The translations under genes and the position numbers were made by a program. From the IMG/VR virus record IMGVR_UViG_3300005915_001138, positions 88,424 to 152,423 of that record: DNA of 64,000 bases; one strand, given 5' to 3'. The notes under the pieces were generated by a model. That model made no database searches, was not told where the DNA came from, and saw only the letters and a program-made list of their open reading frames with translations. This DNA is from a virus. Of this stretch, positions 5,981 through 51,372 are shown piece after piece. Every line of letters starts with the position of its first letter. Position 1 is the first letter of the stretch.

Positions 5981-5988
5981 ATCTTATC

Positions 5989-6870: not shown

Positions 6871-8596
6871 TATCTTGTCTCCAAAGGTCCATTACATTTA
6901 CATGACCAGTAAGTTTGGTTCCTACATTTTCTTTAATGTATCTCTCTAATGACTTTTTAAATTGTTTAGGTTCTTGTTCTAATGAATCTAAATACAATGA
7001 TCCATTCGTATTATTCATTTTTATTATATTGTCTATTGTATTCTCTAATGGCATAGTCTCTAGTTCGCTCTGGGTTACAGTGGATGTGTTTCCTAATTGT
7101 ACTGAACAGTATTTTCTTACGTAACAACAGAAGCCCCATGATAATGCTAAGTCATCATTGAATCCTAAGTCAGCTTGAATCTTATCATTTTTATTTGTGA
7201 GTCCTAATAACTCCATGGCTAATCTCTCAGACTTAATTGTATTTGTATCTGTAGTTACATAATCAAATAAAGAATCTAAAATCAATGGTCTAGATTTACC
7301 ATTAGTACTTAATCCATATACGAATTGTTTATTTTGTTCTTTCTTATGACTTCTACTGCTACTATGATTGGGTTTATTCTTACCTCTAAACTCACCGAAG
7401 ATGTTAAACTTAGTTTGTGTATCGAATTGTAATTCATTTATTACAGTTAATCCAAACCCACCTGTATTTTCTACAACTATTATATTATGTGGTACCATTC
7501 TGGCTACCATCTTAACTACTTCGGAAAACATTTTAGGCTCTAGCTTTCCTTTATACTCCATAATCTGTTCACATGTTTCAAAGTCCATCACCTGGATACC
7601 AGAGAAGTCATCACCCGCAGAGGAAGCAGTGTCCACTCCTATGATATAAAATTTACCATGTTGTCTTTCACTAAATATAAAAAGTTCTCCACCCCATTTT
7701 AATTTCATTTCTTTTAATGGAGTTCTGTCTCCTTCCTGTAAAGCTTCCTGAGTATCTGCATCAAACAATGTACTATCTGTACCAATGAATTTGAGTTCTA
7801 ACTCTTGAGCAATCTTTCTTTGATCATTATTTAATAGATTGCATTGTCGAACATACCAAAATGGATCATTTTTAAACAGTGGAATCTCAGACCAGTGGAT
7901 CTCATGAGGAATAAATTGATTTTCTTTTCTCTTTGCCTTTTGATAGTTATTAAAATACCACTTACCTATACCCTCTGTTTTATTTGGAGTAGAAATAACT
8001 ATGTTTCCATATGGAATTCCTGCTGCCTTTGCATCCTGCTGCGATCTATTTACTGACTGAGAAAGAGCTGTCCATGCATCGTCTATGTTTCTTAAGAAGG
8101 CTGCCTCATCTACAACTAACATAGTAATTGCTTTACCACGAAGAGTAGAAGCTGGGTTAGTGGTAGGTATAGTTGCTGCATATAGTGCTGAACCGTTTGT
8201 TAATACAAAATATTGTATCTGATCATTAGCATATTCTGGTTTAATCCAATCAGGAAGATGGAATAACATGTCCTTTACTTTTCTACAAAAGTCAGACGCC
8301 TCAGCATTATCTCTAGATACTAATCCAATTATACAGTTGTCAAAGAAAATACTTAGATATGCTATCATAGCTTGACAGATAGTACTCATACCAATCTGTC
8401 TGCTTTTTAATAGGATTAAATCATGATTTATTAAAAAATCCTTTACAATTCTTTTCTGTGGTTCATACAATTTAATGAATTGGGAGCCACCTGGAACAGG
8501 TATTTTAATACACTCTTCCATAAATTTAATAGGATCCTTTTTATATTTAATTATTAAATTAGCTTTTTCTACTGAGTTAGTTGTTACAACTGCCAT
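6848..8596 (-). CDS. terL: Terminase large subunit
   Basis: 582 residues, normal for a large terminase. The N-terminal ATPase has the terminase-type Walker A LKSRQIGMST (residues 63-72) and Walker B MLVVDEAAF (159-167), followed by a coupling-motif-like VISTPN. The C-terminal RNase H-like nuclease shows GVDTASSAGDD, then VENTGG and DLGFNDDLALS, supplying acidic metal ligands. It packages concatemeric DNA into the prohead at the portal. It lies upstream of the HELVH gene and the tape measure gene in the same transcription direction. No small terminase subunit was identified next to it. Confidence 0.95.
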   Translation of the reverse strand: MAVVTTNSVEKANLIIKYKKDPIKFMEECIKIPVPGGSQFIKLYEPQKRIVKDFLINHDLILLKSRQIGMSTICQAMIAYLSIFFDNCIIGLVSRDNAEASDFCRKVKDMLFHLPDWIKPEYANDQIQYFVLTNGSALYAATIPTTNPASTLRGKAITMLVVDEAAFLRNIDDAWTALSQSVNRSQQDAKAAGIPYGNIVISTPNKTEGIGKWYFNNYQKAKRKENQFIPHEIHWSEIPLFKNDPFWYVRQCNLLNNDQRKIAQELELKFIGTDSTLFDADTQEALQEGDRTPLKEMKLKWGGELFIFSERQHGKFYIIGVDTASSAGDDFSGIQVMDFETCEQIMEYKGKLEPKMFSEVVKMVARMVPHNIIVVENTGGFGLTVINELQFDTQTKFNIFGEFRGKNKPNHSSSRSHKKEQNKQFVYGLSTNGKSRPLILDSLFDYVTTDTNTIKSERLAMELLGLTNKNDKIQADLGFNDDLALSWGFCCYVRKYCSVQLGNTSTVTQSELETMPLENTIDNIIKMNNTNGSLYLDSLEQEPKQFKKSLERYIKENVGTKLTGHVNVMDLWRQDNEQAGKY

Positions 8597-16827: not shown

Positions 16828-17574
16828 TTAACCGAATGATATTATTCTATTAGCGTCCATTAGCTGATAGAGATAGTTGGGATCAATTATTTTATTAATA
16901 GCATGATTAAGAAATTCTATAGTATTATATTTTGTATTAAAATATCCATATCGTTTACAATGTCTAGCCAACTTAGGATATAGTTTTACTATCGCATTAT
17001 ATTCATCTATCTTCAGTCTGTCTGTAAGTTTCTTTGTCTTCGCTGGGATATCTGTTAAGGTTGGCACTGGTACATTTCCACCACTATTTGAAGTGTAATA
17101 ACAACACCGACTGCTACTATGTATAGTAGTTTTAAAGTCTTTAAACATACCGAATACTCTGACTTTACCAGAGACAAGAGGGATCATTGCATATGTTGAA
17201 TATTTAGTAGACCCTATTTCAAATGAAGTTCTTACCTCTACTCTATTCTTTAGAGGTCTTTTTCCCTTGAAAAAGGATACAGCTATCGATCCATTTTTAT
17301 CGAGAGCCTGTTCCACAAATGGTACAACTACATCTGATGGTTCTAGAACGATTATGTCTTCTAATCTATTATCCACCTTCATGTGATATACTGATTTATT
17401 TCCTTGATATGCAGGAACATCAACCACACTAATAGATGTTCCTCCCATTAGATTTTTAGAATCTTGTATGTATTTTATAAATTCTTTAAATGTTAAATTA
17501 GAAATCATAGGAAATTTTCCAGAATCTTGTTCTAGAAATGATTTCGTTATAGATCCTGCTTTCGCTATTGGCAT
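16828..17574 (-). CDS. Hypothetical protein next to RNAP beta, 248 aa
   Basis: Mostly beta-strand pattern up to residue ~150, a Ser/Cys-rich turn (SSSRCCYYTSNSGG), then a helical C-terminal part. No sigma-factor or clamp-binding motif is seen. The start overlaps the end of the beta gene by 10 bases, which suggests coupled translation and possibly a polymerase-associated role (inference from position only). Confidence 0.65.
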   Translation of the reverse strand: MPIAKAGSITKSFLEQDSGKFPMISNLTFKEFIKYIQDSKNLMGGTSISVVDVPAYQGNKSVYHMKVDNRLEDIIVLEPSDVVVPFVEQALDKNGSIAVSFFKGKRPLKNRVEVRTSFEIGSTKYSTYAMIPLVSGKVRVFGMFKDFKTTIHSSSRCCYYTSNSGGNVPVPTLTDIPAKTKKLTDRLKIDEYNAIVKLYPKLARHCKRYGYFNTKYNTIEFLNHAINKIIDPNYLYQLMDANRIISFG

Positions 17575-20500
17575 TCTTCTTCATCCTCTTCTAAATCTAC
17601 TCCAAGTATCTTGAAGTATGAGCTAAGTAATCTTAATGATTGTGGTCTAATATCCAGTTCATCTGATGATATCAAATTCGGATTTTGTAAAATCTCAGAT
17701 AGTAATCTATTCTTTAGTCCAGGTGAATCTGAATGTACTGTCAATAGATCTCTCAGATAATCCATCGATCCATGTGACATAAGTGCCCAGACTTCCATCT
17801 CACCTAATCGTTGTCCACCCATTTTACTTTTTCCACCAAGTGGTTGTAACGTCTTCTTACTATATGGTCCAATAGATCTAGCAGCCATCTTCTCGCTTGC
17901 TCTGTGGACCAATTTTAGAAAGTAAATGTATCCCATTGCTATTGGATTTTTAAGTTCTAATTTAGTTTCAGGATCAAATAATTTTGTTTTATATTCTGAC
18001 CCAGTAAACTTCATTATATTATCTAATTCTTTTGGGTGTATACTTTGAAATGGTGGTTGCATAATATAAAGATTGTTAATCGCTATCGCTCTACCAACAC
18101 CCTTAAAGTCTTTCTTATATTCTTTTATTATTTTATTTGTCGCCCAGGCCTTTGGAGTTTTATCTACCAGTGCCATGAACTCTTTTATCATCTTAACATC
18201 ATTTCTAATAGACTCTTTCTGAGCCCTTAAGTTCTGTCTGAAGTTATGGAATGCTTCATTCAGATGTAATTCAAATAATTGCCCAGCGTTCATTCTAGAT
18301 ATGATGCCTAGTGGATTTAATATTACCTCTAATTTTCTTCCGTCGTCTAGAACCGGCATCTTTTCGTCAGGTATGATTCGAGATATAATTCCTTTGTTTC
18401 CATGCCGGTTAGCGATCTTATCACCAATGCCTATCTTCTCTTCGTATACAGCATTGACTTTAATATATACTCCAGTTACTTTTTGTCCTTTAAACGAATA
18501 CTTACCTTTTCTACTATTACAATCTAGTCTAGACAATCCATGTAGAGTAATAAATTTTTCTATTTCATCTTCATCCATAAATGCACATAGTTTATTTATT
18601 AACTGAATAAATCTATCGCCTTGGTATGTCATAAGCTCTTGTATGAATAGATTATATTCTGATACTTTTTTATTCCATCCATTTGGATATATTTCTATAG
18701 ATGTGACCGTACAATTAGTAGGTGAATATTTCTCAAATGGATCTATGTTAATTGCCTCGAATCCATCATCACTATCTAATGTTTTTATCTTAGCATAGAC
18801 TTCACCCTGCTTTAACTTCTGCCCGATCTTTGGTATCGGGGAGTATCCGTTATCTCCTAGACTTAATAATATTTGGCCGGGGTCTATACTGAAACTCAGA
18901 TCTACAGAGTGAACAGAGACAAGCTTTTTAGATGCTGTTTCACTTAGCACTATACCATCTTCGTAGTTATAACCTTTCCATATAGCAATACCTGTCGTTA
19001 AATTTCTACCTAAAGATAGTTCCCCATCTTTTAAGAATTTAGATTGACATAATATATCACCTTTCTTAAATGTTTCCCCTTCCTTTTTCATAGGCTCAAG
19101 GAAATCTATTGTATTCTGATACAAAGTTCTATAGTATGTTTTAAATACATCCTTCTCTCCGTTATCATATAATACTACCATGAATGTAGGATCTAGATGT
19201 ACAACTTTTCCATTGTCTTTTGCGTTATATAAGAACGTGGTCTTATTCATATAAGATCCTTCGACACCAGTTCTTATTAAAGGCTTCTCTGATTTCTTAA
19301 GAAGAATCGCCTGCTTAGTTTGGTTACTTGCCATTTGTAATCTGGTCTGGTCATCGTTCTTCATGAACGGAGTAAGTGTTATCGGAAAACTAGTTACAAT
19401 TTCTCCATCAGTATCCTTAAACTTACCTAACTCATTAAGCCCTACATTTGGAACCATGTTTAGTATCACACCGCAGCCGTCTCTATCTGGAGTATCTGCT
19501 GGACATATAACTCCGAATTGGCTATCGTCTAACGTTCTCAGATGTGCGGGGACATTATCTTTTTTAAATCCACCAGGACCTGTTAACGAGCATTGAATCA
19601 TAGACGCAATTTCCCCAACAGGATTCATAGTAAAGTTAAAGTGTACGATGTCACTTATGTTGCAACCATCTTCTATTATACTTTTAGGTATTTGAAACTT
19701 GACCGTCTTATTATTCTTAAGGGTTACTAACATATCGTATATCTTTTTGACGAGTGGAAATAGAATGTACTCGGAGTATCTTATTCTCTTATGCTTGATA
19801 TTAGTATCTGATCGTTCACCCTCTTGCATAGCATTCAACAACTCTAGGATGAGTGATGATGTTTTAAAGAATGGTCTAGAGAATATGTCTACTTCATATG
19901 CTGCTCTGAATGAGAATATAACACTATTCCCTTTTTTACTTTCATCTATATTAGAAGCATAGAAATAAGAACCTAATTTATTTACTCTCTCTTCTTGTGT
20001 AGTATCTTTCCATATAGTTTTACAAGTACCTAATAGATACTCTAGTTCTGGATTGATGTCTCCTTTGAACTGACTCATGAACTCATCTATTTCTTCTTCA
20101 GTATGTATAGCAGAAACTAAATCTGCAAGTTGTATTTTCTTACCGAACACAGAAACAACTAGAGGTCGTTTCGATAGTACTATAGATACACTAAGTGTAT
20201 TTGTTTTAAGTTTTAATAGATTAGTAGTTCCTTTAGATGCTCTAAATATTATCGGGTCATCTATTAATTGGAAGATAGGTACCTTTAGATACCCACCTAT
20301 ATAAAAGAACTGACCCTCTATTAATTCTGGTAGTTGTATGATGTATGATATCTCTTTATCTCTTGGGTTCTTGACAGTTATTTTAAGAGATTTCATAATA
20401 TGTCGTTTAAGTTCTTCGGCTGATTTACTCTTAAATTTAATCCATTCGGATTTTACAAACTCCCACCCATCAACCAAATTTATCTTTTCAAATAATTCAT

Positions 20501-20582
20501 CTATTAATGATTTAATTCGATCAGGGTTCCATTCAGTTTGACGCCTGTCGAATATAGTAGCTTTCTTAAATCTTGAATCCAT
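17565..20582 (-). CDS. RNA polymerase beta subunit homologue (1005 aa)
   Basis: A single-chain beta subunit with the conserved landmarks in order: LPELIEGQFFYIGG (84-97), NPVGE (320-324), the GPGG...HLRTL...GVICPADTPDRDG region (335-369), GYNYEDGIVLSE (537-548), GIGDKIANRHGNKG (718-731) with both active-centre lysines K722 and K730, and GGQRLGEMEVWAL (922-934). It pairs with the beta-prime gene three genes upstream. At 1005 residues it is shorter than cellular beta (about 1340), losing lobe and flap material. GGAG precedes the start; it overlaps the zinc-protein gene by 17 bases. Role: phage transcription. Confidence 0.95.
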   Translation of the reverse strand: MDSRFKKATIFDRRQTEWNPDRIKSLIDELFEKINLVDGWEFVKSEWIKFKSKSAEELKRHIMKSLKITVKNPRDKEISYIIQLPELIEGQFFYIGGYLKVPIFQLIDDPIIFRASKGTTNLLKLKTNTLSVSIVLSKRPLVVSVFGKKIQLADLVSAIHTEEEIDEFMSQFKGDINPELEYLLGTCKTIWKDTTQEERVNKLGSYFYASNIDESKKGNSVIFSFRAAYEVDIFSRPFFKTSSLILELLNAMQEGERSDTNIKHKRIRYSEYILFPLVKKIYDMLVTLKNNKTVKFQIPKSIIEDGCNISDIVHFNFTMNPVGEIASMIQCSLTGPGGFKKDNVPAHLRTLDDSQFGVICPADTPDRDGCGVILNMVPNVGLNELGKFKDTDGEIVTSFPITLTPFMKNDDQTRLQMASNQTKQAILLKKSEKPLIRTGVEGSYMNKTTFLYNAKDNGKVVHLDPTFMVVLYDNGEKDVFKTYYRTLYQNTIDFLEPMKKEGETFKKGDILCQSKFLKDGELSLGRNLTTGIAIWKGYNYEDGIVLSETASKKLVSVHSVDLSFSIDPGQILLSLGDNGYSPIPKIGQKLKQGEVYAKIKTLDSDDGFEAINIDPFEKYSPTNCTVTSIEIYPNGWNKKVSEYNLFIQELMTYQGDRFIQLINKLCAFMDEDEIEKFITLHGLSRLDCNSRKGKYSFKGQKVTGVYIKVNAVYEEKIGIGDKIANRHGNKGIISRIIPDEKMPVLDDGRKLEVILNPLGIISRMNAGQLFELHLNEAFHNFRQNLRAQKESIRNDVKMIKEFMALVDKTPKAWATNKIIKEYKKDFKGVGRAIAINNLYIMQPPFQSIHPKELDNIMKFTGSEYKTKLFDPETKLELKNPIAMGYIYFLKLVHRASEKMAARSIGPYSKKTLQPLGGKSKMGGQRLGEMEVWALMSHGSMDYLRDLLTVHSDSPGLKNRLLSEILQNPNLISSDELDIRPQSLRLLSSYFKILGVDLEEDEEECQ

Positions 20583-26955: not shown

Positions 26956-28683
26956 CTATTTTTTTACTAATCGATTCAGTAATCTTTCTTTACCTTCGTC
27001 ACTTATATTAAGTCTATTAATTAATTCTTCTGGATAAGCAACATACATTTGAGTTGCTTCTCCGTGAAGTAGATCTCCAGGATCATCGTCAAGTTCGTAG
27101 TATTTTCTTGGGTCTTCTAACCCTGCTTGAAGGAATGCTAAATGAGAAAGTATTCCTGACCCACATGCTGGCCAACCTTTATAGCTACACCCTTCTAGAT
27201 GCATCCTAGGTCTATCACAACTGATAGTATTGGTAGCAATCATTTCAAATATATCTAACCCATCTAACAGGGTACATATTTCCCGCTTTAATAGATTGCT
27301 ACAACAAAATAATGGTTCTATTTTAGTCCCTATAATAGATGATAGCACAGCAAATTCTTGAAACCTTCTAACAAATCTCTCAGTATTATCTGGATAAACT
27401 CCTGACTCACTTAGGTTTAGAAATCCTCCAGCAATATATACTTTATCGTAATCTTCTTGTGTAATATATCTCTCTGCAAGTGCCCCTAAATAAGAAGCAA
27501 ATATTCCATTTCTAAACGGAGCCCATGCTACTGTAGTTTTTATATAGTTTGGATCTCCTGAGTTGACAGGTACATTCTTATCTAATAACATACCAAATCC
27601 CATCTCTTGCATAGGTTTTTGTATATGCATTACTTTAAGATTATGTAATCCAATTCCGCTCATCTCACACACCCTACGGGCTGCCTGAAACTCTGATTGT
27701 TCTCCAACATGACCATACATAAAGTGTACAGCAGTCACATCATACCCAGCTAGATGTAGCAGCACAGCAGTAGCAGAGCTATCCAATCCACCTGAAAGGG
27801 AAACAAGAACCTTTTCTTTTCCCGATTTCTTTTTCGTTAATGGATCATAATTATTCGTAATATATCTAGGTGTAAATTTTATATCTTCTCGTTGACCAGT
27901 TTGAGTATCTATCGATACTATTGTATTCTCTGGTATCTCTTGACAATAATAATCTTCCCATACTTTTGTATTACATCTAGTTGTATCTTTACCTCTCAGT
28001 CTACTTATGACTCTCCATATTGCATCTTCTGAAGACGCGAAGAACATTCCATGCCCGACTACATATCCACAGAACAATGGGTTGTGATTACATACGGCAT
28101 ACAATTTGTGTTGATATTTTTGATCAACTAAAATAAATGCAAGACCCCCTACTAAATATTCTACAGCTTTTTTAATGTCTCCACTATGTAAATAATAGGA
28201 CCATAGAATTGCTTCACTATCTATAGCTCCACTAGAAATGGATACAAATTTATTCTCTACTTTCTCTCTTAATTCTTCAACTATATGATTAGATATTCCG
28301 CCATTATGAACAAGCTGAAATCCTTCTTCCATTATAGGCTGTAGTTCTAATACACTTGACTCCGCTTCTGTTTCTGGGATGGCTCTGAAATTAGATAGAT
28401 GTATATCTCCTACTTGAATGTTCTTACTATCTATTCTAACTACATTCTGGATATCATCTATCATTCTATTTAATCGTACTTTGTCTCCCATCTTAACTTC
28501 GTAGTTAGGATCTACAACATTAGGATGGGTTCGTCTATGTTGAGAATTTGCTCTTCCATTGGGCTTAATTATACATGTCCCAAACCCATCCATACCTCGG
28601 GCGGGACCCGAACTGAGAAGGCCCATAAGGACCTCCTCAGTCGGTACGGATTCAATCGCCCAATAAGCTGAAATGAAACACAT
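26956..28683 (-). CDS. Class II glutamine amidotransferase-QueC-like fusion
   Basis: 575 residues from the ATG at 28683, which shares TAATG with the JAB gene stop; this start puts Cys at position 2 (MCFISAYW), as an N-terminal nucleophile amidotransferase requires, whereas the earlier ATG would not. VHNGGISN and ASSEDAIW are further amidotransferase landmarks. The second half has the PP-loop SGGLDSS (297-303), HFMYGHVG, and YPDNTERF as in 7-cyano-7-deazaguanine synthase (QueC). QueC normally uses free ammonium; the fused domain would supply it from glutamine. The end has CDRP..GCSYKG..ACGSG instead of four regular Cys, so the zinc site is altered. QueC relatives (QatC, Cap9) also occur in defence operons. 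Confidence 0.8.
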   Translation of the reverse strand: MCFISAYWAIESVPTEEVLMGLLSSGPARGMDGFGTCIIKPNGRANSQHRRTHPNVVDPNYEVKMGDKVRLNRMIDDIQNVVRIDSKNIQVGDIHLSNFRAIPETEAESSVLELQPIMEEGFQLVHNGGISNHIVEELREKVENKFVSISSGAIDSEAILWSYYLHSGDIKKAVEYLVGGLAFILVDQKYQHKLYAVCNHNPLFCGYVVGHGMFFASSEDAIWRVISRLRGKDTTRCNTKVWEDYYCQEIPENTIVSIDTQTGQREDIKFTPRYITNNYDPLTKKKSGKEKVLVSLSGGLDSSATAVLLHLAGYDVTAVHFMYGHVGEQSEFQAARRVCEMSGIGLHNLKVMHIQKPMQEMGFGMLLDKNVPVNSGDPNYIKTTVAWAPFRNGIFASYLGALAERYITQEDYDKVYIAGGFLNLSESGVYPDNTERFVRRFQEFAVLSSIIGTKIEPLFCCSNLLKREICTLLDGLDIFEMIATNTISCDRPRMHLEGCSYKGWPACGSGILSHLAFLQAGLEDPRKYYELDDDPGDLLHGEATQMYVAYPEELINRLNISDEGKERLLNRLVKK

Positions 28684-29783
28684 TACTTCCACATCCACGC
28701 TGGTATTTTTGCGTACTCGTGGTCAATAGATTCCATATATGCTTCCCATTCTTCGGCGTCCATATCGTTGTACGATTGTGCGCCTAGAGGTTTTCCGTCA
28801 TCATCGTCGTCGTCATCGGGGACGCCTGATAATGATTGAAGGTCATCATCTTCGTATGGGTTCCAACCACCTATCCCACCGCCTGCGCGGTCTTCGTCGG
28901 GATCGAGGTCAGCATCTTCGGCGAACGCAGAACCGCTTCTATTCCCGGTCATCCCCGAAGACGAGTCGTTCGAGCCATGACCTTCGGTAGGGTGGAATAC
29001 ACCGCCTTGCCAGTATCCTGGCTTGCCGTTCTGGGTACCCTGGTGTCTCATACCTGCGCCTTGGCTAGAGTGAACGTTGTGGTTGCCTCTGCCTTGCCAG
29101 TTTCCTAGCCCACCAAATTGACTACCACTATAAGCATATGATCTTTTATAAGCATATGATCTTTCTTTTATTTTCTCTGCATGATTTTCCGGAAGGACTG
29201 CTATATGATCCTGCATCGGTATTGGTTTAAGTTTAAGTCTTATTCTTGTTGCACCCATATCTCTGGATCTAGTGTTAGCAATACCATAATGAAAATCGTG
29301 GTTAACCCACAATAAGCTTATTATAAAATTCCTGTTAATATATGATTCATCTGTGGCAGAGAAACTTGTCACTCCACCTGGATGTTTGTGTATCACTCCA
29401 TTGAAGTCTGGATTGTCCTCTTCGTAATCCACATGGGCTCCGGAGACTTCTTGCTGAGGAAGAAAGTATTCGTCTTCCAATACAAACATATCTCTTTCAA
29501 CATCCCAGCTACCCTTTACCAGAATGCTCCACTCTACACTGGGATATTCTGCATCTAATCCTCTACATACTTGATAAATTGGTTCTGGAATTGCGCAAGG
29601 AACTGTTTTACTAGTACTAACGAAATCTATTATTTTTGGATCTTTGGATTCCCACGCGTTCGAAGTCTTTACACCCGCTCCATAGGCGTGAGTCGGGGCA
29701 AGCTTGCTAGCTTTAGGAACCAATCCCGATCCACCCACATCTTTGGGTACACTCTTATCTTTCTTAAGTCTTGTTATAGGCAT
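28683..29783 (-). CDS. JAB/MPN (JAMM) domain protein with acidic tail
   Basis: 366 residues. The JAMM signature is complete: Glu84 (SVEWSILVKG), then H132xH134P with S142 and D145 (HKHPGGVTSFSATD), the zinc-metalloprotease arrangement used to remove or process ubiquitin-like proteins. The C-terminal 150 residues are Gly/Asn/His-rich and then acidic and low-complexity, with higher GC than the rest. Starts by TAATG overlap with the E1-like gene and ends by TAATG with GAT-QueC, so the three are coupled. The substrate is not seen. Confidence 0.8.
   Translation of the reverse strand: MPITRLKKDKSVPKDVGGSGLVPKASKLAPTHAYGAGVKTSNAWESKDPKIIDFVSTSKTVPCAIPEPIYQVCRGLDAEYPSVEWSILVKGSWDVERDMFVLEDEYFLPQQEVSGAHVDYEEDNPDFNGVIHKHPGGVTSFSATDESYINRNFIISLLWVNHDFHYGIANTRSRDMGATRIRLKLKPIPMQDHIAVLPENHAEKIKERSYAYKRSYAYSGSQFGGLGNWQGRGNHNVHSSQGAGMRHQGTQNGKPGYWQGGVFHPTEGHGSNDSSSGMTGNRSGSAFAEDADLDPDEDRAGGGIGGWNPYEDDDLQSLSGVPDDDDDDDGKPLGAQSYNDMDAEEWEAYMESIDHEYAKIPAWMWK
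29130..29164. repeat. 18-base direct repeat in the JAB gene
   Basis: Two adjacent copies of ATAAGCATATGATCTTT with period 18 encode a doubled KRSYAY-like segment in the linker between the JAMM domain and the acidic tail. Recent slippage is the simplest explanation. Confidence 0.7.
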
Positions 29784-40269: not shown

Positions 40270-41163
40270 TCATTCATACATTCTATGTTTGTGAAGAAGC
40301 CCTTCTAAATCGTCTAGAATTTTACCAGATTTACTAGGAGTAACGATCACTCCATCCAATGATCCATAGTGTTCTTCTAAACAATCCATTAGTAGTTGCT
40401 TGATAGCATCTTCTTCTGCTTCTTCTCGGAGATCAGACTTGACATATATTTCTTCCAGTATTTTTTCTTTCTTAGAAAACCAGTCGAATACATCTTCTTT
40501 AGTCCATTCTCCTCTTCTTATTGATTTAAGTTGTTCTCTGTTTCTTTCAAGATCTATATCATGTTCCAAAAGAATTTGTTCAACCTCACACATCAGTCTA
40601 ACAAGATGGTATGCATACTTAACATCATACCCAAATTGTTCTACCAATTGTTTTCTTTTTCCTTTTGGATTCTTAGTTCTTATTTGATTTATTTGGGAGT
40701 AGGCATAGTTCTTAAACCTGTGCCAGCTACCCTTATGAAGAAACAACTTTCTGTTTTCTTTTACAATGTTTGCTACTTTAGTTGCATGCAATACACAACG
40801 TCTAGATGTAAATAATGAATCAATCATATTAGGATTATTTAACATACATAAATGAAAGTATTTGACTATACTATATATGGTAATATCATAATCTACACCA
40901 GTGTCAGGATCGACTGCTGCGTGTGCTTGAAACTGCTCGAACCTTTTCTTCTGCAGTCCAAACCCAACTATGTCTCCACCTAGATGTGGAAATATAATTT
41001 CTTTTGGGGGTATACAAAACCCATATATATCTACATCAGAATCGGAATTGTTTACTGCATAGGCATGACTACCCATCATGGTTTCATAATGTATATTATC
41101 TAGTAAAAATGGGGGAGGTTGAATCACTCCCTTCTCTTTTAGTTTAGCTGTTACTGCTCCCAT
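40270..41163 (-). CDS. Minimal nucleotidyltransferase (YcgL/RlaP-like)
   Basis: 297 residues. GSHAYAVNNSDSDVDIYGF near residue 31 is the GSxxYG..SDxD signature of polymerase-beta-fold nucleotidyltransferases of the YcgL/COG3541 group; a further Asp in a DYDITIYSI strand completes the metal triad. Relatives occur in RNA repair operons. Here it is a few genes away from HD-Pnk and Hen1-ligase in the same direction, which fits that context. A helical C-terminal region follows. Confidence 0.75.
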   Translation of the reverse strand: MGAVTAKLKEKGVIQPPPFLLDNIHYETMMGSHAYAVNNSDSDVDIYGFCIPPKEIIFPHLGGDIVGFGLQKKRFEQFQAHAAVDPDTGVDYDITIYSIVKYFHLCMLNNPNMIDSLFTSRRCVLHATKVANIVKENRKLFLHKGSWHRFKNYAYSQINQIRTKNPKGKRKQLVEQFGYDVKYAYHLVRLMCEVEQILLEHDIDLERNREQLKSIRRGEWTKEDVFDWFSKKEKILEEIYVKSDLREEAEEDAIKQLLMDCLEEHYGSLDGVIVTPSKSGKILDDLEGLLHKHRMYE

Positions 41164-41916: not shown

Positions 41917-43158
41917 CTATTCGGTGTCGTTCCAGATCACCTCAACTTTATGAAATCCTTCTCGCTGAGTAGGGATACTCATTTTAGGAATCATCCAATT
42001 TATTACATGTTCTTTTACAGTTTTCTCTTTTCTATCTGCATCTCTTGCAATGTAATCTTTTGTGTTACATATTATAAACTTACATCCTATCTTGGATGTT
42101 TTTCCTAGTATTTTCTTCAAGAGACTGAATAATTGCTTACGAGATTTAACCGTAAGACTCGTATTACATATTGCTATTTTCGCATCTGTACCATTGATTG
42201 CTCTGAATTCTACAATCGCATTCCGTAGCAAGGCCATTAAGTCAACCTTATTAGAGTTGCACCATCTGTATGCTTCATTATATAAAGTGTCCGGGTCGCA
42301 GGAATCAACTGCCTCAGGATGTTCTTTAATATATTCGGCTACTCTGATATCATCGAAGCTAAATATTTTGAACCCTAATTTTAATGCGAGGTAGTCTTTC
42401 CCTACGCCCGGAGCTCCACAAAATATACATCCATTAATATCATCGTCTTCTTTTAATTTGGAACCATCTTTATTTAAATAGATTTCTCTATTTAAATCTA
42501 ATATAGGGTCTACCCCACATTCCCGTAGGGATTGAATCGCTATGGTAAATTGGTTCGACCTGAGGTCAGGATTCTTCATCCGATCATTGTCATCATCGGT
42601 GATCTGACCATATTCATCAGCACTTAATAATCTATTGAAGCATTCAGTAATGAACCATGAATTGTTACAAAATCCTTCAATATTTCCTTTATCTTTCAAT
42701 TGATAAGCATCAATGTGTCTACTTGTAAGTAATGTTACGCAATGTAGAATGAGACCAAAATCAGGATCGTCCCCAAACAATTTGTGACACACCTCTGCTG
42801 CAAACTGTGTGCCTGCTTGACCATGTCCATAGAAAGCCACGCCGTCCCCTTTTCTATTGGGTTGCCTACGTGAAATCTTTCCATAGTCATGGACCAAAGC
42901 TGCAGTCAAAATTACTTTATTTCCCACATCACTTATATTTATACCGTTGTAACAGAGAGAAGGATCGAAAAGATTCAGTCCATTGAATACTAACATGGTA
43001 TGAGTCCATAGATTATCCTCTAGATGGTATCGGTTCGGCTCCCCTTCATGGGAGTGCAGGCAATCAGTCATCAATCTATAAAGATAACCATAATGGGTAA
43101 GATACATCTTAAGGAATTTACCTTTTGTTACCCGGTGTAATGAACTTTCTCTTTCCAT
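41917..43158 (-). CDS. HD-Pnk end-healing enzyme
   Basis: 413 residues. N-terminal HD domain with H53 (WTHTMLV) and H90-D91 (ALVHDYGK) and further His; C-terminal P-loop kinase with GAPGVGKD (248-255) followed by FSFDDIR. This matches HD-Pnk, a bifunctional enzyme whose HD domain removes 2',3'-cyclic or 2'/3' phosphates and whose kinase phosphorylates 5'-OH ends. Such ends are made by anticodon nucleases. The Hen1-ligase gene three genes upstream would seal them. Confidence 0.85.
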   Translation of the reverse strand: MERESSLHRVTKGKFLKMYLTHYGYLYRLMTDCLHSHEGEPNRYHLEDNLWTHTMLVFNGLNLFDPSLCYNGINISDVGNKVILTAALVHDYGKISRRQPNRKGDGVAFYGHGQAGTQFAAEVCHKLFGDDPDFGLILHCVTLLTSRHIDAYQLKDKGNIEGFCNNSWFITECFNRLLSADEYGQITDDDNDRMKNPDLRSNQFTIAIQSLRECGVDPILDLNREIYLNKDGSKLKEDDDINGCIFCGAPGVGKDYLALKLGFKIFSFDDIRVAEYIKEHPEAVDSCDPDTLYNEAYRWCNSNKVDLMALLRNAIVEFRAINGTDAKIAICNTSLTVKSRKQLFSLLKKILGKTSKIGCKFIICNTKDYIARDADRKEKTVKEHVINWMIPKMSIPTQREGFHKVEVIWNDTE

Positions 43159-43170
43159 TCTTCTTTCTCC

Positions 43171-43485
43171 TTAGCTAGTTGTCGTCGTCAGGATGTAACT
43201 TCCAAGTAGTATCATTAGTGATCCTACTATCAATTTTAAATTAATTAATTGGTTGTCGAAGTAAATGGAATAAAGAAATGAAAGAACTGATATACATCCC
43301 GTAGCTATAATCCAAACCACAAATATTGTTGGTCCTCTTTGAAATGCTACCCAATATAAATAGTTAGCGAGTATGATAACAGGTGTAAGCTTTAATGTAT
43401 TTATTAAAGTGATGTCCCAATTAGAGAAACTAATATTAAGTTTAAGAAGGAGCAATGATCCTAAGAGGATGCAGATGATCCACAT
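43171..43485 (-). CDS. Small multi-pass membrane protein
   Basis: 104 residues with about four hydrophobic segments (start, ~30-48, ~52-72, ~85-102), reminiscent of small multidrug-resistance/EamA half-size proteins but with no diagnostic residue. Overlaps the NADAR gene by 25 bases. A role in superinfection or transport is possible but not shown. Confidence 0.6.
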   Translation of the reverse strand: MWIICILLGSLLLLKLNISFSNWDITLINTLKLTPVIILANYLYWVAFQRGPTIFVVWIIATGCISVLSFLYSIYFDNQLINLKLIVGSLMILLGSYILTTTTS

Positions 43486-43949
43486 TGTAATATAATACCT
43501 CTCTCAATTGCAATAGCTCCTCGTACTGTCATTAATAAAATACCTAAATGATTTTCACCTACACCATCACATACTCCCCAGTATTTATCATCCCATGTAT
43601 TTGTCTCTTCTAGATGTGCATTTCCAGTCTCTACTAATTTCTCCAGCAGATCTTCATGTTCGTCAATTTTTTCAAATAATAATATGAACATGACCCCTAA
43701 TTTAACTGCTTCCCAATCCTCTCTTATTTCTATTTCCTGCCCTAGTTTCTTTGCTTGGCCAGGAGTAATATTTACAAATCTCTCTCTTGTTTTTGGGTCT
43801 CTGCTTTTCGCAGCCTGATACGCATTTTCTACAGTTGGATAGATTACCCCTTCAAATTCTACAGGAGCGGGATGAAAATTAGATAGGAATTCATATTGAT
43901 TAAAAAATCCATTAATTGGTTTGTCTCGTCCGTCTGATATACTACCCAT
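43461..43949 (-). CDS. NADAR (YbiA-like) family protein
   Basis: 162 residues. YEFLSNFHPAPVEFEG and YPTVENAYQAAKSRDP match the FLSNFyP and ExxYQaaK landmarks, and KYWGVCDGVGENHLGILLM matches the closing W-G motif. NADAR proteins act as N-glycosidases on NAD-derived metabolites, and some reverse guanine ADP-ribosylation of DNA; a counter-defence role is plausible next to RNA repair genes. AAAGGAGA precedes the ATG. Confidence 0.88.
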   Translation of the reverse strand: MGSISDGRDKPINGFFNQYEFLSNFHPAPVEFEGVIYPTVENAYQAAKSRDPKTRERFVNITPGQAKKLGQEIEIREDWEAVKLGVMFILLFEKIDEHEDLLEKLVETGNAHLEETNTWDDKYWGVCDGVGENHLGILLMTVRGAIAIERGIILQCGSSASS

Positions 43950-43970: not shown

Positions 43971-43998
43971 CCAGGGGGAGAACCATTCCTCCCCCTGG
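43971..43998 (-). other. GC-rich intergenic hairpin 2
   Basis: CCAGGGGGAG-loop-CTCCCCCTGG, a 10-pair perfect stem with an 8-base loop, between the Hen1-ligase stop (44010) and the NADAR ribosome binding site. No T-tract follows. Confidence 0.7.
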
Positions 43999-44009
43999 AA
44001 ATTGTATTG

Positions 44010-46643
44010 TTAAAGAGTCGCGTCAATACCTCTCATGTTTACTGATTCCATTCCGATAAACGCTGCAGTGTACCGCTTAAGCATCACCGGATCTCTTCTA
44101 AGGAATGCAGTTAACATATTGAGGGACACGTCAAACTCTTGAGCTGCAAGGACTCTCTTCTTCTTCGTTCCCCTTCTCTTTAATTGTTCGAAATAATCAG
44201 GTTGGAGATAGTCGATACCATATACTATCTGTAGGTATCTCTTTCCTCGAACTTTAACTGCTGGTTGAATGTAATATCCATTCGCTGAATATCTCATGAA
44301 GTCCATTGGTTTGTATACGAATCCTTCGCCTACTTCATTGTCACAATACTTCATCCATCTCTCAATGGAATCTGCTACTGACTTCGGCTCTTGTAAGTAT
44401 ACAACATGTCCAACACAATGTTTAATGAAACTGGCATCGCCTTTTGTATTTGAGATATCTTGAATTAATTCTAGATGTTTTCCATGATCCATAAAGAATC
44501 CATTCACAACATCTCTGAACCTAAGTCCTTTGGGATGCTGATCACATGATCCATATGCTAGAACATGGAACGGTCTTATTTCTAGTCTGGAATCTGCAGC
44601 ATATGTGTCTACTGTTTCTAGGAAGTCTACAGAACTTTGGGTGTAATCGCTTGGAACCTCCAGAGAGGTTCCGGATGCGTATGATCTAGAAAGAAATGCA
44701 CATTCACCTGGCTGTCTGAACTGGCGATCAATCATCTTACCAGCCTTCAAATTCCAGGGCATGATCTCTGCATCTAGTACCATGAAATCAAATTTCATTG
44801 CAGGGGCGAGCTCTTCCCATATGGCCATCAGTGTGGCATCGTCGGTGAAGAATGGGAACCCACCTCTTGAATTTATAACTAGTGGTAATCTGTATCCAGC
44901 TGCCTTAGCATCCTCTGGATTTTTGAAGCATAGTATATATCCTCTTGAACCCATGTACTTTTCTTCACCAATGAGCTTAGTAACTCCACGGTTTCTATAG
45001 TACTCAAAGCAAGAAAGAGGGTGCTCTAAGAAGTCTGGAGCTCCCTCAGTCCAATCGCACGGGCTTATTGTTGGGGCAAGATAGAATATATTTTTTCCAT
45101 TCATTCTGAATGCGCGAGATGAATATCCATTCGCTATCTCATTGGGTCTGACAGTATACCCTACGCGACTGAAGTGAATTCCTTGATACATCTCCTGCCA
45201 TTTTCTTATTGATATTGTTTGATGGTTAACAGGAGATCTACCTCTCCCTCTCTTCTTTTTCTTCTTGATAGGAGTTTCAACTCGGGTACATACTAAACAG
45301 AACGATGGTTGTATTTCTTCTTCTGGGACAAGGAGGCGCATTTCCACAGTGTATTTCTTCGCAAGAGGAATTACTACCTCGGCAACAAACTCATCGTAGT
45401 TGAACTCTATCTTATGATCTCTATGTCTCCATATTCCTTCTTCCAATCCTATTATATCATTATATGCTACGTTCGGTGTAGTCAGTACTAGATGCTTCGG
45501 TTGGAAGACGTCCCTGATTATGGATACGAGGTTACGTCTATCTTCACTGTCGAAGTGTTCTATGAATTCAACACAAGCTAATACGTCTGGATTAACATCC
45601 ACTTCAGTGATATTCGGGAACATCGCATCACATTGTATCAACTTGGTATTCGTATTTCTCATTTTCTTTCGAGCTTTTCTAACACGATACTCTTCTAGCT
45701 CTATACCAACTGCACGTACTGAATTAAACTCTTCTTGTTCTCTGAGGGCATACAATAGTTTACCTTCTGAGAAACCAAGATCAACAAAGGTATTAAACTT
45801 TCCATCTGCATGGAGATTTTTCATGAGCTCAAGTACAAGATCGTGACGCTTCTGATGAAGGCCTATCCGTGTAAATCTCTCATCTATTTTCTTGGCAATT
45901 TCACCTCTAAGATCTTCGTCTTCAATACCTTCTATCAGTCCAGTTTCAAATAATTTAATAAGGTTCTTGTTATATCTACATATTTTATTTACAATCATGT
46001 TTTTGATTGGGCAATCCATTATCCATTCTTTACAAAGATTTATAAACTTAACAACTTGTTCTTCACCCATTGAGTAAATGCTATCTCTATTGAATGAAAG
46101 ATAAAAGCTTACTACATATACCTTCTGGAGAAATTCTGTTATGGACATTGGTTCTATTGAGTTTAGTGAGTACATATGTGTTCCACCAGGAAGACCGATT
46201 GTATCTACACACGATATTCCTACTTGTGAAAATGATGAAGAGGCATACTCATGGTCCACAGTATATGGTCCCATGTATGCTCCCCACATTCTTTTCTCTG
46301 AGAATTGTTCATCAGTTAAGTGTCCACCAGATGCATTTCTTCCCCGCATTACTGATCTGAGGATTTCATCAAATGCTTTGAGGTTATATGGACAGACTGA
46401 AGTCATATGATTGTGGACATATGCTGGTAGATTAAGTTTCTTTGCAGTTGCTAAAAATGATAGGGGCGCATTTACTGCAGACCCATGATATGATTGTCGC
46501 CCAGTCTTTTCATCGACTGAAAACCACCCAGCTATTCGTCTTCCTTCCTTACCCATCTCTCTCATGAAGATGGACTCGGGGTTCTTACAAATAGCCCAGG
46601 AAAAGTTTTCAGTTGGTTCTTCTGGCCATATGTTAAAATACAT
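44010..46643 (-). CDS. Hen1 methyltransferase fused to Pnkp-type RNA ligase
   Basis: 877 residues in three parts. Residues 1-~240 match the N-terminal domain of bacterial Hen1 (YASSSFSQVGIS at 133-144; CPIKNMIVNKICRYNKNL). Residues ~286-450 are the Hen1 methyltransferase: VDLGFSEG (287-294) for SAM, metal ligands E359, E362, H363, then TTPNVAYN and RHRDHKIEF. Residues ~490-877 match the adenylyltransferase (ligase) domain of bacterial Pnkp: LEHPLSCFEYYR, EEKYMGSR with K562 as the AMP-accepting lysine, DAEIMPW, and EGFVYKP. In bacteria Hen1 and Pnkp are separate; here the 2'-O-methylation and ligation steps are in one chain. It begins at TGATG overlap with the 74-aa gene. Confidence 0.88.
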   Translation of the reverse strand: MYFNIWPEEPTENFSWAICKNPESIFMREMGKEGRRIAGWFSVDEKTGRQSYHGSAVNAPLSFLATAKKLNLPAYVHNHMTSVCPYNLKAFDEILRSVMRGRNASGGHLTDEQFSEKRMWGAYMGPYTVDHEYASSSFSQVGISCVDTIGLPGGTHMYSLNSIEPMSITEFLQKVYVVSFYLSFNRDSIYSMGEEQVVKFINLCKEWIMDCPIKNMIVNKICRYNKNLIKLFETGLIEGIEDEDLRGEIAKKIDERFTRIGLHQKRHDLVLELMKNLHADGKFNTFVDLGFSEGKLLYALREQEEFNSVRAVGIELEEYRVRKARKKMRNTNTKLIQCDAMFPNITEVDVNPDVLACVEFIEHFDSEDRRNLVSIIRDVFQPKHLVLTTPNVAYNDIIGLEEGIWRHRDHKIEFNYDEFVAEVVIPLAKKYTVEMRLLVPEEEIQPSFCLVCTRVETPIKKKKKRGRGRSPVNHQTISIRKWQEMYQGIHFSRVGYTVRPNEIANGYSSRAFRMNGKNIFYLAPTISPCDWTEGAPDFLEHPLSCFEYYRNRGVTKLIGEEKYMGSRGYILCFKNPEDAKAAGYRLPLVINSRGGFPFFTDDATLMAIWEELAPAMKFDFMVLDAEIMPWNLKAGKMIDRQFRQPGECAFLSRSYASGTSLEVPSDYTQSSVDFLETVDTYAADSRLEIRPFHVLAYGSCDQHPKGLRFRDVVNGFFMDHGKHLELIQDISNTKGDASFIKHCVGHVVYLQEPKSVADSIERWMKYCDNEVGEGFVYKPMDFMRYSANGYYIQPAVKVRGKRYLQIVYGIDYLQPDYFEQLKRRGTKKKRVLAAQEFDVSLNMLTAFLRRDPVMLKRYTAAFIGMESVNMRGIDATL

Positions 46644-48430: not shown

Positions 48431-50926
48431 TTATTCTTTAAAAAATATCGTCTCAACTTTCCAACCCATCTTAGCATAGAATTCTTTCCTTCTCTGTGCC
48501 TGGTATTCAAATATATAATTTCCAGATTTATTCTTAGGACTTTGGGTATCTACTAAATCTATTACTATTGGTCTACGTTTCCCCTTGAGTTCTCTCTGAA
48601 CTCTACCCACTGCTTGTTCTATGTTGCCAGTCGGTATACATAATACAAGAAAGTCTAAATCTTTTCTGTTGTTTCCATCCCTAGCCATACCATATGTAGA
48701 AAACACAACTCGCTTTTTATAGAATGCTTCTTTAAGATCTGTAGTATCTGAAAGTTCTAGAACTCTTTTCTTATGTTCACTGGTGGCAGTGCTCATAAAT
48801 ATACCGATGTCTTTTTTATGAATATTACATGCCTCGGCCATGTTCATTAGACCCTGAACTCTATTGCCAAGTACTAATATATTTCTTCCCTCTGTGTATG
48901 CTCTCTTTATAATCGACGCAACATTATGAATATACTTAGGTTGCTTCGCCAATAGATTCCAGTATCTAGCATTCTGAAATCGTCCTCCCCACATTAAATT
49001 TTGTTTCATATTATATGTTTCAAATACATGGAACGGCATATGTACCATAAGAACTTTGGGGTTTATTAGTTCATCTTTCTCCGGAGGAAAATACTTTACC
49101 TCTCCGAGGTGATATCTTATTATGTCATCATTTCCATCTGGTCTAAATGGTGTAGCAGATAATCCATATATTCGTTTGGCGTTTATATAAATTGAACTCT
49201 TGGAGAATTCCTCTGGACCTATTCCAACATGGCATTCGTCTATAAAACAAATACCTATGCCTGCTTTTAATAATGCGCGTATGAAATCTTTTTTATTTAA
49301 TCTAATAGCTACAGATATAGTATGGGGTGTACATAAAATGATTTTCTTTTTCAGACAGCCATCAAACTTCTTATCGTCTGTATTAACCTTCTGAATATCA
49401 TCTTCTGTTAGATTAGTATGTTTAAGAAATTCACCTCTCCATTGATCTAATAGTTCTGTTTTATGAGCAAATATAATAGTTCGTTTCTTTAATCTACATA
49501 TAGTTTCTATTGCTGTAACAGTATTATGTGTTACTATAAAATCATCAGTTATGTATAATCCATCATCTGAATCAACTTTTATACATTGACATTCTTCTTT
49601 TCCAATATATTTAATATCTTTTATTGCTCTCGAAGGAGGATATTTATGAATATTATTATATCTTTTAACTTTTCGAGATAATCTAAATGGAATTATATTT
49701 TTATCTAAAGTTATATTTACTACCCAGGAAGGTCTTCCTTTTTTCTTAATATTTTTATATGTATAATATGTTTGTTTTGGATATATTTTGGATTTTCCAC
49801 CAAGACTATCAACTATAAATTTAACATCTTTACATAACGTATAAGATGTAGATGAAAAACTAACTTCTTGTTTTTTATCTGAAACATATCCATCGGTATC
49901 CAAGAGTCCTTGTAGAATACTAATTCGATTATACATAGAATTAAATTTATATGTATTTGGTATAAATTTTTCATATGATTTTTTACCCAGAAGACCCAAT
50001 TCATCCAAATATATTTTTAAAGGATTTAAATATTTTCCTTTTTTTCTAAATTTTTTTCTAAACTTATTATTTTTAATTCTTATTCTGTAGTCATATTTGT
50101 TATCTTTTTTGAACTCAAGATTATATTTATCTAATAACACCGAACAAGTTTCTATCAATTCTTTATCCCTGGAAGATAACGATATAGTTCCACCACCAAA
50201 TCTAATTGTTCCATCTCCAAGCAAACAACCTAAAAGATAAGGGTCTATTTTTATTTCTTGATTTTCAAATTCAATAGGAGATGTAATTGGGATAAAATAT
50301 TTAAGTCTTTTTTGTTTATCTATATAATAATCATTTTTTAAATCATTTAATGGTTTAATCTTCCAATATTCTTTTTCACCAATACATGATCTTTTATATT
50401 TTACTTTCCATAAATGATCATTACAACAAAACGTTGTGGCTCCATCATTAAAAGTTAATTTATATACTTCTTTTTTACCTTGAGGAAAAACACCTAATAC
50501 CTTTACATTTCTTCCAGATACTGGATCAATTACATTATCCCCGATTTGAATATCTTGAAGGTTTTTCCAACCAATAGGTGTCAATATTTTAGAATAAATT
50601 GGTTGAGCTTTCCCACTCCCAGGTTCGAGTCTAAGTATACAATTCTCTGTTTTCTCAAGAAAGTTCATCACCTTCTCTTGTCTAGAATTCAAAGGTTTTA
50701 TTTTTGATTCTATTTCTATATCATCTCCGTCAGTTCTATCATCTCTTATTTTTCCAAGAGCAGGGTAGAATCTAGGGATAACTATGTAGTCTGACATGTC
50801 CTCGTAAAAGGTCATAGTTTTCCATGATCCATCCCACTGAAAGACTTTCCTAGTGAGGTCTGATTTTATCAACTCTAACTGAGGGTCATCTTTCGGAAGG
50901 ATGATACCTGACTTTCGTATTAACAT
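48431..50926 (-). CDS. UvsW-like superfamily 2 helicase containing an intein
   Basis: 831 residues; about 469 after removing the intein. Exteins: PGSGK/T as Walker A, split by the intein after Lys106; then FIDECHVG (DExH box), GLSATPFRP (motif III-like), and EQAVGRVQR (motif VI). The N-terminal ~95 residues resemble the small accessory domain of T4 UvsW. The family unwinds branched DNA and D-loops and helps with recombination-dependent replication. The intein is noted separately. Confidence 0.88.
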   Translation of the reverse strand: MLIRKSGIILPKDDPQLELIKSDLTRKVFQWDGSWKTMTFYEDMSDYIVIPRFYPALGKIRDDRTDGDDIEIESKIKPLNSRQEKVMNFLEKTENCILRLEPGSGKAQPIYSKILTPIGWKNLQDIQIGDNVIDPVSGRNVKVLGVFPQGKKEVYKLTFNDGATTFCCNDHLWKVKYKRSCIGEKEYWKIKPLNDLKNDYYIDKQKRLKYFIPITSPIEFENQEIKIDPYLLGCLLGDGTIRFGGGTISLSSRDKELIETCSVLLDKYNLEFKKDNKYDYRIRIKNNKFRKKFRKKGKYLNPLKIYLDELGLLGKKSYEKFIPNTYKFNSMYNRISILQGLLDTDGYVSDKKQEVSFSSTSYTLCKDVKFIVDSLGGKSKIYPKQTYYTYKNIKKKGRPSWVVNITLDKNIIPFRLSRKVKRYNNIHKYPPSRAIKDIKYIGKEECQCIKVDSDDGLYITDDFIVTHNTVTAIETICRLKKRTIIFAHKTELLDQWRGEFLKHTNLTEDDIQKVNTDDKKFDGCLKKKIILCTPHTISVAIRLNKKDFIRALLKAGIGICFIDECHVGIGPEEFSKSSIYINAKRIYGLSATPFRPDGNDDIIRYHLGEVKYFPPEKDELINPKVLMVHMPFHVFETYNMKQNLMWGGRFQNARYWNLLAKQPKYIHNVASIIKRAYTEGRNILVLGNRVQGLMNMAEACNIHKKDIGIFMSTATSEHKKRVLELSDTTDLKEAFYKKRVVFSTYGMARDGNNRKDLDFLVLCIPTGNIEQAVGRVQRELKGKRRPIVIDLVDTQSPKNKSGNYIFEYQAQRRKEFYAKMGWKVETIFFKE
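49523..50608 (-). mobile_element. Intein with LAGLIDADG endonuclease in the helicase
   Basis: Residues 107-468 (362 aa) of the helicase. It starts with Ala (GK/AQPIYSKILTPIGW) instead of the usual Cys or Ser and ends DDFIVTHN before Thr+1, a VTHN-T ending common in phage inteins. The two DOD motifs LLGCLLGDG (231-239) and ILQGLLDTDG (337-346) identify an endonuclease domain. Block B is present near the N-terminus (DGATTFCCNDHLW region). It sits between Lys and Thr of the P-loop, the most common intein site in ATPases. AT content is higher than in the flanking exteins. Confidence 0.93.
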
Positions 50927-50934
50927 ATGTACTC

Positions 50935-51372
50935 CTAATATAATTTTAATGAGACGCAGTATTTATCTGTTTCCCATAATTCTAATTCGCTGTAACCTTT
51001 ATAGAAGTCTGACTCTAGTGCAAGAAATCTTATATGTTTTGCAATGTCGTTAACTATTACTTCTGCAGTAGGTTCTCCATCTACTAGTGCTATTTTCTTA
51101 GGTGAAATCTCGCCAATAACATCTAACATTTCAGTGTCATGTGAACTTATTATTATAGAATGATCGAACTTCTCTAATACATATCCTGCAATATTTGATT
51201 CTATTTCTTTGAAGTCTTCTACCATTCCACTTGTTGGAGATAGATCTCCTTCATAGTATACTAATAGTTTATAATTGTGGCCATGTAAAAACGCACAGTC
51301 ACTTTTACTATATTTTAATCTATGTGCTGCTGAGAAGTTAACTCTTACTGTTAGTTTGAACATCTTTGTCAT
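50935..51372 (-). CDS. queD: QueD, 6-carboxytetrahydropterin synthase
   Basis: 145 residues. Zinc ligands are seen as FSAAHRL and HGHNY, with the catalytic cysteine at SDCAF three residues before HGH; FDHSII, PTAEVI and LWETDKYCVSL complete the pattern. QueD makes the pterin precursor for 7-deazaguanine (preQ0), used for queuosine in tRNA or for DNA modification. The partner QueC-like fusion is at 26956-28683; QueE and a GTP cyclohydrolase are not in the window. Overlaps the membrane protein gene by 35 bases. Confidence 0.92.
   Translation of the reverse strand: MTKMFKLTVRVNFSAAHRLKYSKSDCAFLHGHNYKLLVYYEGDLSPTSGMVEDFKEIESNIAGYVLEKFDHSIIISSHDTEMLDVIGEISPKKIALVDGEPTAEVIVNDIAKHIRFLALESDFYKGYSELELWETDKYCVSLKLY

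Follow-up and report, generated by a model that had tools for sequence, protein, structure and literature searches.

A Hen1-ligase fusion gene and its neighbors

The window, a 64,000-nucleotide stretch of the IMG/VR virus record IMGVR_UViG_3300005915_001138, encodes on its minus strand an intact, uninterrupted open reading frame of 877 codons (44010-46643(-)) whose product is a Hen1-ligase fusion. In chain order this consists of a Hen1 N-domain, a Hen1 2'-O-methyltransferase, and a Pnkp-type ATP-dependent RNA ligase, with neither the kinase nor the phosphatase of Pnkp. The ATG of the gene shares the sequence TGATG with the stop codon of a preceding 74-aa open reading frame, and this overlap suggests that translation of the two is coupled. 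The features of the gene and of its downstream neighbors, all on the minus strand, are as follows.

44010..46643, minus strand: Hen1-ligase fusion gene, 877 aa plus stop (open reading frame, domain searches, structure model)
45930..46643, minus strand: Hen1 N-terminal ligase-activating domain, residues 1-238 (hhalign against Hen1 N-domains)
45279..45884, minus strand: Hen1-type SAM-dependent 2'-O-methyltransferase domain, residues 254-455 (TIGR04074, Methyltransf_25, match to 3jwg)
45762..45782, minus strand: SAM motif I DLGFSEG, residues 288-294 (motif alignment)
45555..45569, minus strand: metal site E359-x-x-E362-H363 (invariant in five fusions, also kept in related phage Hen1)
45402..45428, minus strand: RHRDHKIEF, residues 406-414 (H410 aligned to the conserved DH histidine of Hen1)
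45114..45278, minus strand: linker between methyltransferase and ligase, residues 456-510 (least conserved; model confidence low at 467-472)
44013..45113, minus strand: Pnkp-type ATP-dependent RNA ligase domain, residues 511-877 (PF16542, identity to Clostridium thermocellum Pnkp, Foldseek)
44958..44960, minus strand: K562, the expected AMP-accepting lysine, in motif I KYMGSR (invariant in alignments)
43461..43949, minus strand: NADAR domain protein, next gene downstream of the fusion (PF08719, E 3e-22)
41917..43158, minus strand: HD-Pnk, candidate end-healing partner (N-terminal HD phosphoesterase and C-terminal P-loop kinase GAPGVGKD; D269, R272)
40270..41163, minus strand: RlaP, RNA ligase-associated Pol-beta nucleotidyltransferase (PF10127)

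A GC-rich hairpin (CCAGGGGGAG...CTCCCCCTGG) at 43971-43998, between the fusion and the NADAR gene, is a possible terminator or processing site. An association of NADAR proteins with RNA repair has been discussed (PMC9503650), and the link of this particular gene to repair is uncertain.

Elsewhere the phage has 22 tRNA matches and two further Rnl2-type ligases, so that the fusion is not its sole sealing enzyme. The window phage carries multi-subunit RNA polymerase genes, as indicated by a beta-like subunit (17565-20582(-)) that is distant from its counterparts in AR9 and YerA41. A QueC-like protein joined to a glutamine amidotransferase domain (26956-28698(-)) and a QueD/PTPS protein (50935-51372(-)) together suggest 7-deazaguanine modification of the phage DNA, and a helicase gene (48431-50926(-)) is split by an intein-like insertion containing a LAGLIDADG motif.

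Domain composition and conserved residues

Both Pfam models of the Hen1 N-domain scored below threshold on the fusion (Hen1_L, E 0.004; Hen1_N, E 0.007), and the domain was recognized by profile-profile alignment with hhalign against 15 Hen1 N-domains, at 98.2% probability (E 4.9e-14) over 212 columns. By this alignment the fusion possesses the N-terminal ligase-activating domain of the type-1 Pnkp/Hen1 systems, and the canonical signature of that domain (YVNDRPYVASSFLSVAI; conserved YVNDRPYVASSF) aligns with fusion residues 75-93 (YVHNHMTSVCPYNLKAFDE). The original prediction had read all three segments from the sequence alone, and domain searches and hhalign bear each of them out; it had also taken YASSSFSQVGIS for the N-domain signature, a likeness that the alignment reveals to be coincidental, the true position being residues 75-93.

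The methyltransferase was matched by the bacter_Hen1 model (TIGR04074) at residues 163-436, by Methyltransf_25 above its Pfam cutoff, and, in a sequence search of the PDB, by the CtHen1 structure 3jwg (E 3e-13). The EXXEH...H metal site of Hen1 methyltransferases is present, with E359, E362, H363, and H410 invariant in five fusion proteins, and the metal-site residues and the RHRDHKIEF motif are thus found where they had been predicted. The SAM-binding motif I departs from the canonical form, reading Dx[GC]xSEGK in the core fusion members (variants DLGFSEG, DLGCSEG, DLCTSEG, and DVGTSEG) versus DxGxGxG in type-1 Hen1. Serine replaces the middle glycine in all core members, and it does so in none of the 63 readable type-1 Hen1 motifs. 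We read the altered motif as a family trait rather than decay because it is conserved and the metal site is intact, and it is the main doubt about methylation. The nearest non-Hen1 NCBIfam match of this domain is CmoA, which has a serine at the same position of motif I yet binds a SAM derivative.

The ligase domain is better conserved than the methyltransferase (51 versus 39% identity with the homolog L015 described below). PNKP_ligase (PF16542) matches residues 512-854 with 200.7 bits against a cutoff of 28.2 (E 5.8e-59), and a sequence search of the PDB found the C. thermocellum Pnkp ligase (4e-36), with which the domain shares 34% identity. The fusion has the KxMGSR motif of Pnkp-type ligases as well as the downstream motifs; K562, correctly anticipated in KYMGSR, is invariant in five fusion proteins, as are R567, R593, E626, E773, K778, and K797. 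The bacter_Pnkp model (TIGR04075) matches through its ligase part alone (profile positions 477-831 of 851). The scores against both NCBIfam models fall far short of their equivalog cutoffs (bacter_Hen1, 104.6 versus 340 bits; bacter_Pnkp, 186.3 versus 750). In type-1 systems the ligase is chained to a kinase and a metallophosphoesterase with Hen1 encoded separately; TIGR04075 matched nothing beyond the ligase part in any of the six records with a fusion, and neither its kinase/phosphatase module nor a HAD_PNKP phosphatase was found above cutoff in any of them, in agreement with the predicted lack of these modules.

A model of the fusion, built from an 86-row alignment, reached a mean pLDDT of 89.9 and a pTM of 0.86. 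Among solved structures, Foldseek placed it closest to 4drf_A (E 9.4e-23, TMt 0.80, rmsd 3.8), in which the C. thermocellum Pnkp ligase is complexed with Hen1-N, and the same ligase alone (3ty5/3ty8/3ty9) fits worse (TMt 0.70-0.72, rmsd 5.7-8.0). Hen1-N is described as unlocking the ligase through immobilization of the insertion domain (PMC4411300), and the better fit to 4drf_A is what would be expected if the fused N-domain holds this insertion module open. The model thus agrees with a ligase kept in its Hen1-activated form, and from the pTM and the Foldseek comparison we infer that the N-domain packs on the ligase in cis. The methyltransferase resembles CtHen1 (3jwg, TMt 0.81) and AvHen1, each with TMt of about 0.8.

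Distribution and phylogeny of the fusion

We scanned IMG/VR and GTDB with the ligase alignment and then mapped domains; these scans are pattern based and may miss distant fusions. Among the matches listed, ordinary Pnkp occurs at about 80 or more bacterial loci, usually adjoining a separate Hen1, which accords with the predicted rarity of the fused form. The first scans placed the fusion, among the matches listed, only in the window phage and the loci L015 and L010; later scans and mapping added L132, L133, and L149 and an internally deleted copy, L148, giving six other metagenomic loci with the fusion or a remnant of it among the matches listed. The idea that the fusion is unique to the window phage is rejected by these loci. 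The fusion recurs elsewhere, and cultured jumbo phages have other arrangements (see below).

L015 is a 24-kb contig of a metagenome-assembled genome (MAG) of Falkowbacteria (Patescibacteria). Among 380 genomes scanned from the phylum to which this MAG belongs, the MAG alone contained the full-length fusion, and the other matches were to the methyltransferase region alone. RtcB and archease lie beside the Falkowbacteria fusion (5684-7665(-)), with a serine recombinase upstream, and this neighborhood is a possible RNA-repair island. In L132 (3326-6152) the Hen1 N-domain occupies a separate frame overlapping the methyltransferase-ligase frame, as either a natural split or a sequencing indel; on this evidence, covalent linkage of the N-domain would not be essential in every member. 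L148 (3021-3903) is a remnant with only the N-domain and the ligase C terminus.

The window fusion (P0001) groups with L015, L132, and L149 with SH-aLRT support of 98, so that its orthologues come from the Patescibacteria MAG and two phage contigs, and in the ligase tree this clade falls on the side of the type-1 enzymes. L010 and L133 are more distant fusions. Placing the six usable fusions in one clade was not rejected (p-AU 0.685), and the tree with them held together was 10 log units better, but L010 and L133 sit on long branches, and the six may derive from one origin or from several.

Candidate end-healing enzymes near the fusion

The HD-Pnk that had been proposed as a partner is present 0.85 kb downstream of the fusion in the window phage, and in L132 a homolog with 31% identity follows the fusion at a distance of 1.7 kb, so that the two genes occur within 2 kb of each other in two divergent large phages (275- and 245-kb contigs), the two longest. 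HD-Pnk was not found with the fusions of L149, L010, L133, and L015, whose records may be incomplete. The protein combines an HD phosphoesterase and a kinase in one chain, as do its Campylobacter phage homologues and the enzyme of Runella slithyformis from the Shuman laboratory, whose type we take it to represent. The HD metal-site residues H53, H90, D91, H112, H148, and D181 are invariant in four homologues, and the kinase P-loop is likewise seen in four homologues. It differs from the known type in adjoining a Hen1-ligase fusion and in its Walker A motif, which ends in GKD versus GK[ST], with aspartate in place of the usual serine or threonine; D269 and R272 presumably form the pattern seen in T4 Pnkp. 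A phmmer comparison of HD-Pnk with solved structures gave no meaningful match, and a model from a two-row alignment reached a pLDDT of 41.6. Campylobacter phage homologues of HD-Pnk (e.g., L153 2950-3981) are often annotated as polyA polymerase.

It is plausible that HD-Pnk replaces the lost end-healing modules of Pnkp. RlaP of the window phage scores above the gathering cutoff of PF10127 (52.9 bits versus 23, E 5.6e-14), and the contigs of L132 and L149 carry RlaP as well. In L132 the fusion and HD-Pnk are separated by an Rnl2-type ligase.

Comparison with known RNA repair systems

The original prediction described Hen1 and Pnkp as two proteins in bacteria, but some bacteria use three, namely Pnkp1, Rnl, and Hen1 (PMC4411300). 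Like the type-1 Pnkp/Hen1 systems of C. thermocellum and Anabaena variabilis (TIGR04074/TIGR04075), the fusion has a homologous Hen1 N-domain and methyltransferase and a ligase on the type-1 side of the tree; unlike them, it is without kinase and metallophosphoesterase modules, has its ligase joined to the Hen1 C terminus, and carries the altered SAM motif I. With the type-2 Pnkp1-Rnl-Hen1 system of Capnocytophaga gingivalis (PMC4411300) it shares a division of labor in which a stand-alone ligase and Hen1 seal and mark while healing resides on another protein, and the Rnl-Hen1 heterodimer of that system is its functional analogue. The type-2 system, also reported in Borgs (PMC11208441), differs in comprising three proteins, with a T4-type kinase-HAD phosphatase and a ligase from a distant clade, whereas the window phage has one chain and probably HD-Pnk. 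No PF25109 match to a T4-type Pnkp1 with HAD phosphatase was found in the 275-kb record that shares an identical stretch with the window, and the fusion ligase separates in the tree from type-2-like phage ligases and lies outside the Rnl clade. Type-2 membership is rejected by tree and composition.

Other large phages arrange the same modules differently. In the cultured jumbo phages XacN1 and RAS14 the gene order is likewise Hen1 then ligase, 1 to 2 bp apart, but the genes are separate, belong to the type-2-like clade, and encode products with 21-25% identity to the fusion. ORF197 of XacN1 (L006 6366-7580), called PNKP in PMC5852040 and annotated as a metallophosphoesterase, contains a ligase domain only. 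Vibrio phages RYC and sm033 also have a fusion that involves Hen1, of the opposite kind, in which Hen1 is joined to a T4-type kinase and HAD phosphatase and the ligase gene is separate; the same Hen1-kinase-HAD phosphatase fusion with a separate ligase occurs in the locus L139.

L003 7104-9257 and L005 7029-9209: Hen1-kinase-HAD phosphatase fusion of Vibrio phages RYC and sm033

At other phage loci Hen1 is paired with a larger protein, about 800-900 aa long, that includes a ligase. The giant viruses Hokovirus, Yasminevirus, and Terrestrivirus have proteins that are Hen1-like and proteins that are Pnkp-like by structure (BFVD A0A1V0SF26, A0A1V0SF21, A0A5K0U9Y2, and A0A3G4ZLK8). The T4 Pnkp/Rnl1 system resembles the arrangement proposed below as a phage counter to anticodon nucleases with separate healing and sealing enzymes; unlike it, T4 has no Hen1, so that a repaired tRNA is unmarked and open to renewed cleavage. 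Across 224 jumbo phages, one survey reports Rnl1, Rnl2, RtcB, kinase-HAD proteins, HD-like phosphatases, and RlaP, and the word Hen1 is absent from its text (PMC7824862). The domains and the type of pathway are already known. What appears to be new, in that the literature searched did not contain it, is the covalent joining of Hen1 to the ligase, the conservation of this fusion in divergent phages and in a MAG, and its occurrence together with HD-Pnk; earlier mention in RNA-repair surveys is possible.

A proposed model of tRNA repair with immunity

These comparisons are best explained if the fusion does in one chain what the Rnl-Hen1 heterodimer, or else the Pnkp-ligase/Hen1 module, does in the "repair with immunity" systems of bacteria. 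We consider it probable that HD-Pnk heals the ends of broken tRNA and that the single-chain Hen1-ligase methylates and seals them, in a pathway whose activities, tRNA substrate, order of steps, cis activation, and partnership we infer. A tRNA-cleaving toxin of the host would leave a 2',3'-cyclic phosphate and a 5'-OH; the HD domain of HD-Pnk would take off the phosphate and its kinase would phosphorylate the 5'-OH, while RlaP may put back a lost nucleotide. The methyltransferase domain of the fusion would then 2'-O-methylate the healed 3' end, and the ligase, which the fused Hen1 N-domain would keep active in cis, would be adenylated on K562 and seal the ends, yielding a junction without the 2'-OH needed for recleavage. 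For comparison, Rnl-Hen1 alone ligates healed ends at a rate at least tenfold higher with SAM, and roughly half the product is methylated and withstands colicin D (PMC4411300).

It is rather unlikely, in our estimate, that the fusion instead uses other healing enzymes, from the host or among unrecognized phage proteins, and that the nearness of HD-Pnk reflects a general RNA-repair island rather than a two-protein complex. This reading draws on the occurrence of HD-Pnk in Campylobacter phages without any Hen1-ligase match, on the several fusions with which HD-Pnk was not found, on the two Rnl2-type ligases of the window phage, and on the one in L132, which could be the real partner of HD-Pnk; it is opposed by the two phages with the longest contigs, where less than 2 kb separates HD-Pnk from the fusion and no Pnkp kinase or phosphatase is recognized. 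We regard as improbable a protein with an active ligase and a catalytically lost methyltransferase retained as a ligase-activating scaffold, which would repair RNA without marking it. The deviation of SAM motif I in all core members and the lower conservation of the methyltransferase part would suit such a protein, but no core member that retains the domain has lost E359, E362, H363, or H410, the altered motif is itself conserved and still ends in EGK, and the serine has its counterpart in CmoA.

Eukaryotic Hen1 methylates intact 3' ends, and with some 22 tRNA genes in the window phage one could picture the fusion protecting or maturing phage RNAs, for instance by 2'-O-methylating the 3' ends of tRNAs or other small RNAs of the phage, while sealing would be a secondary activity. 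This we hold to be very unlikely, since the chain also carries a conserved ligase with its motifs complete, and this ligase and the nearby RlaP argue for break repair. An assembly or sequencing artifact merging two neighboring genes could be imagined from XacN1 and RAS14, where a missed stop between the closely spaced Hen1 and ligase genes might mimic a fusion, but it is ruled out for practical purposes because a 22.6-kb stretch of the window also occurs unchanged in another, longer record (275,542 bp) and because four other uninterrupted fusions of 809-884 aa (L015, L149, L010, and L133) occur on unrelated contigs with 23-43% identity.

Implications

More tentatively, at a confidence that falls somewhat short of even, we suggest that HD-Pnk and the single-chain Hen1-ligase may constitute a third architecture for methylating RNA repair, carried by phages and additional to Pnkp/Hen1 and Pnkp1-Rnl-Hen1. 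Its covalent linkage would make activation of the ligase and marking of the junction inseparable, and sealed host or phage tRNAs would withstand renewed attack by the anticodon nuclease that had broken them. The various phage arrangements (Hen1-ligase, Hen1-kinase-phosphatase, and all separate) show how the same modules get rearranged. How the Hen1 N-domain activates the ligase has so far been studied in complexes of two or three proteins, and a natural single-chain Hen1-ligase is a handy tool with which activation in cis could be tested with one construct. If the model is true, these phages would not stop at undoing tRNA-cleavage defenses: a single polypeptide would both seal the tRNA and mark it, vaccinating it against being cut a second time.
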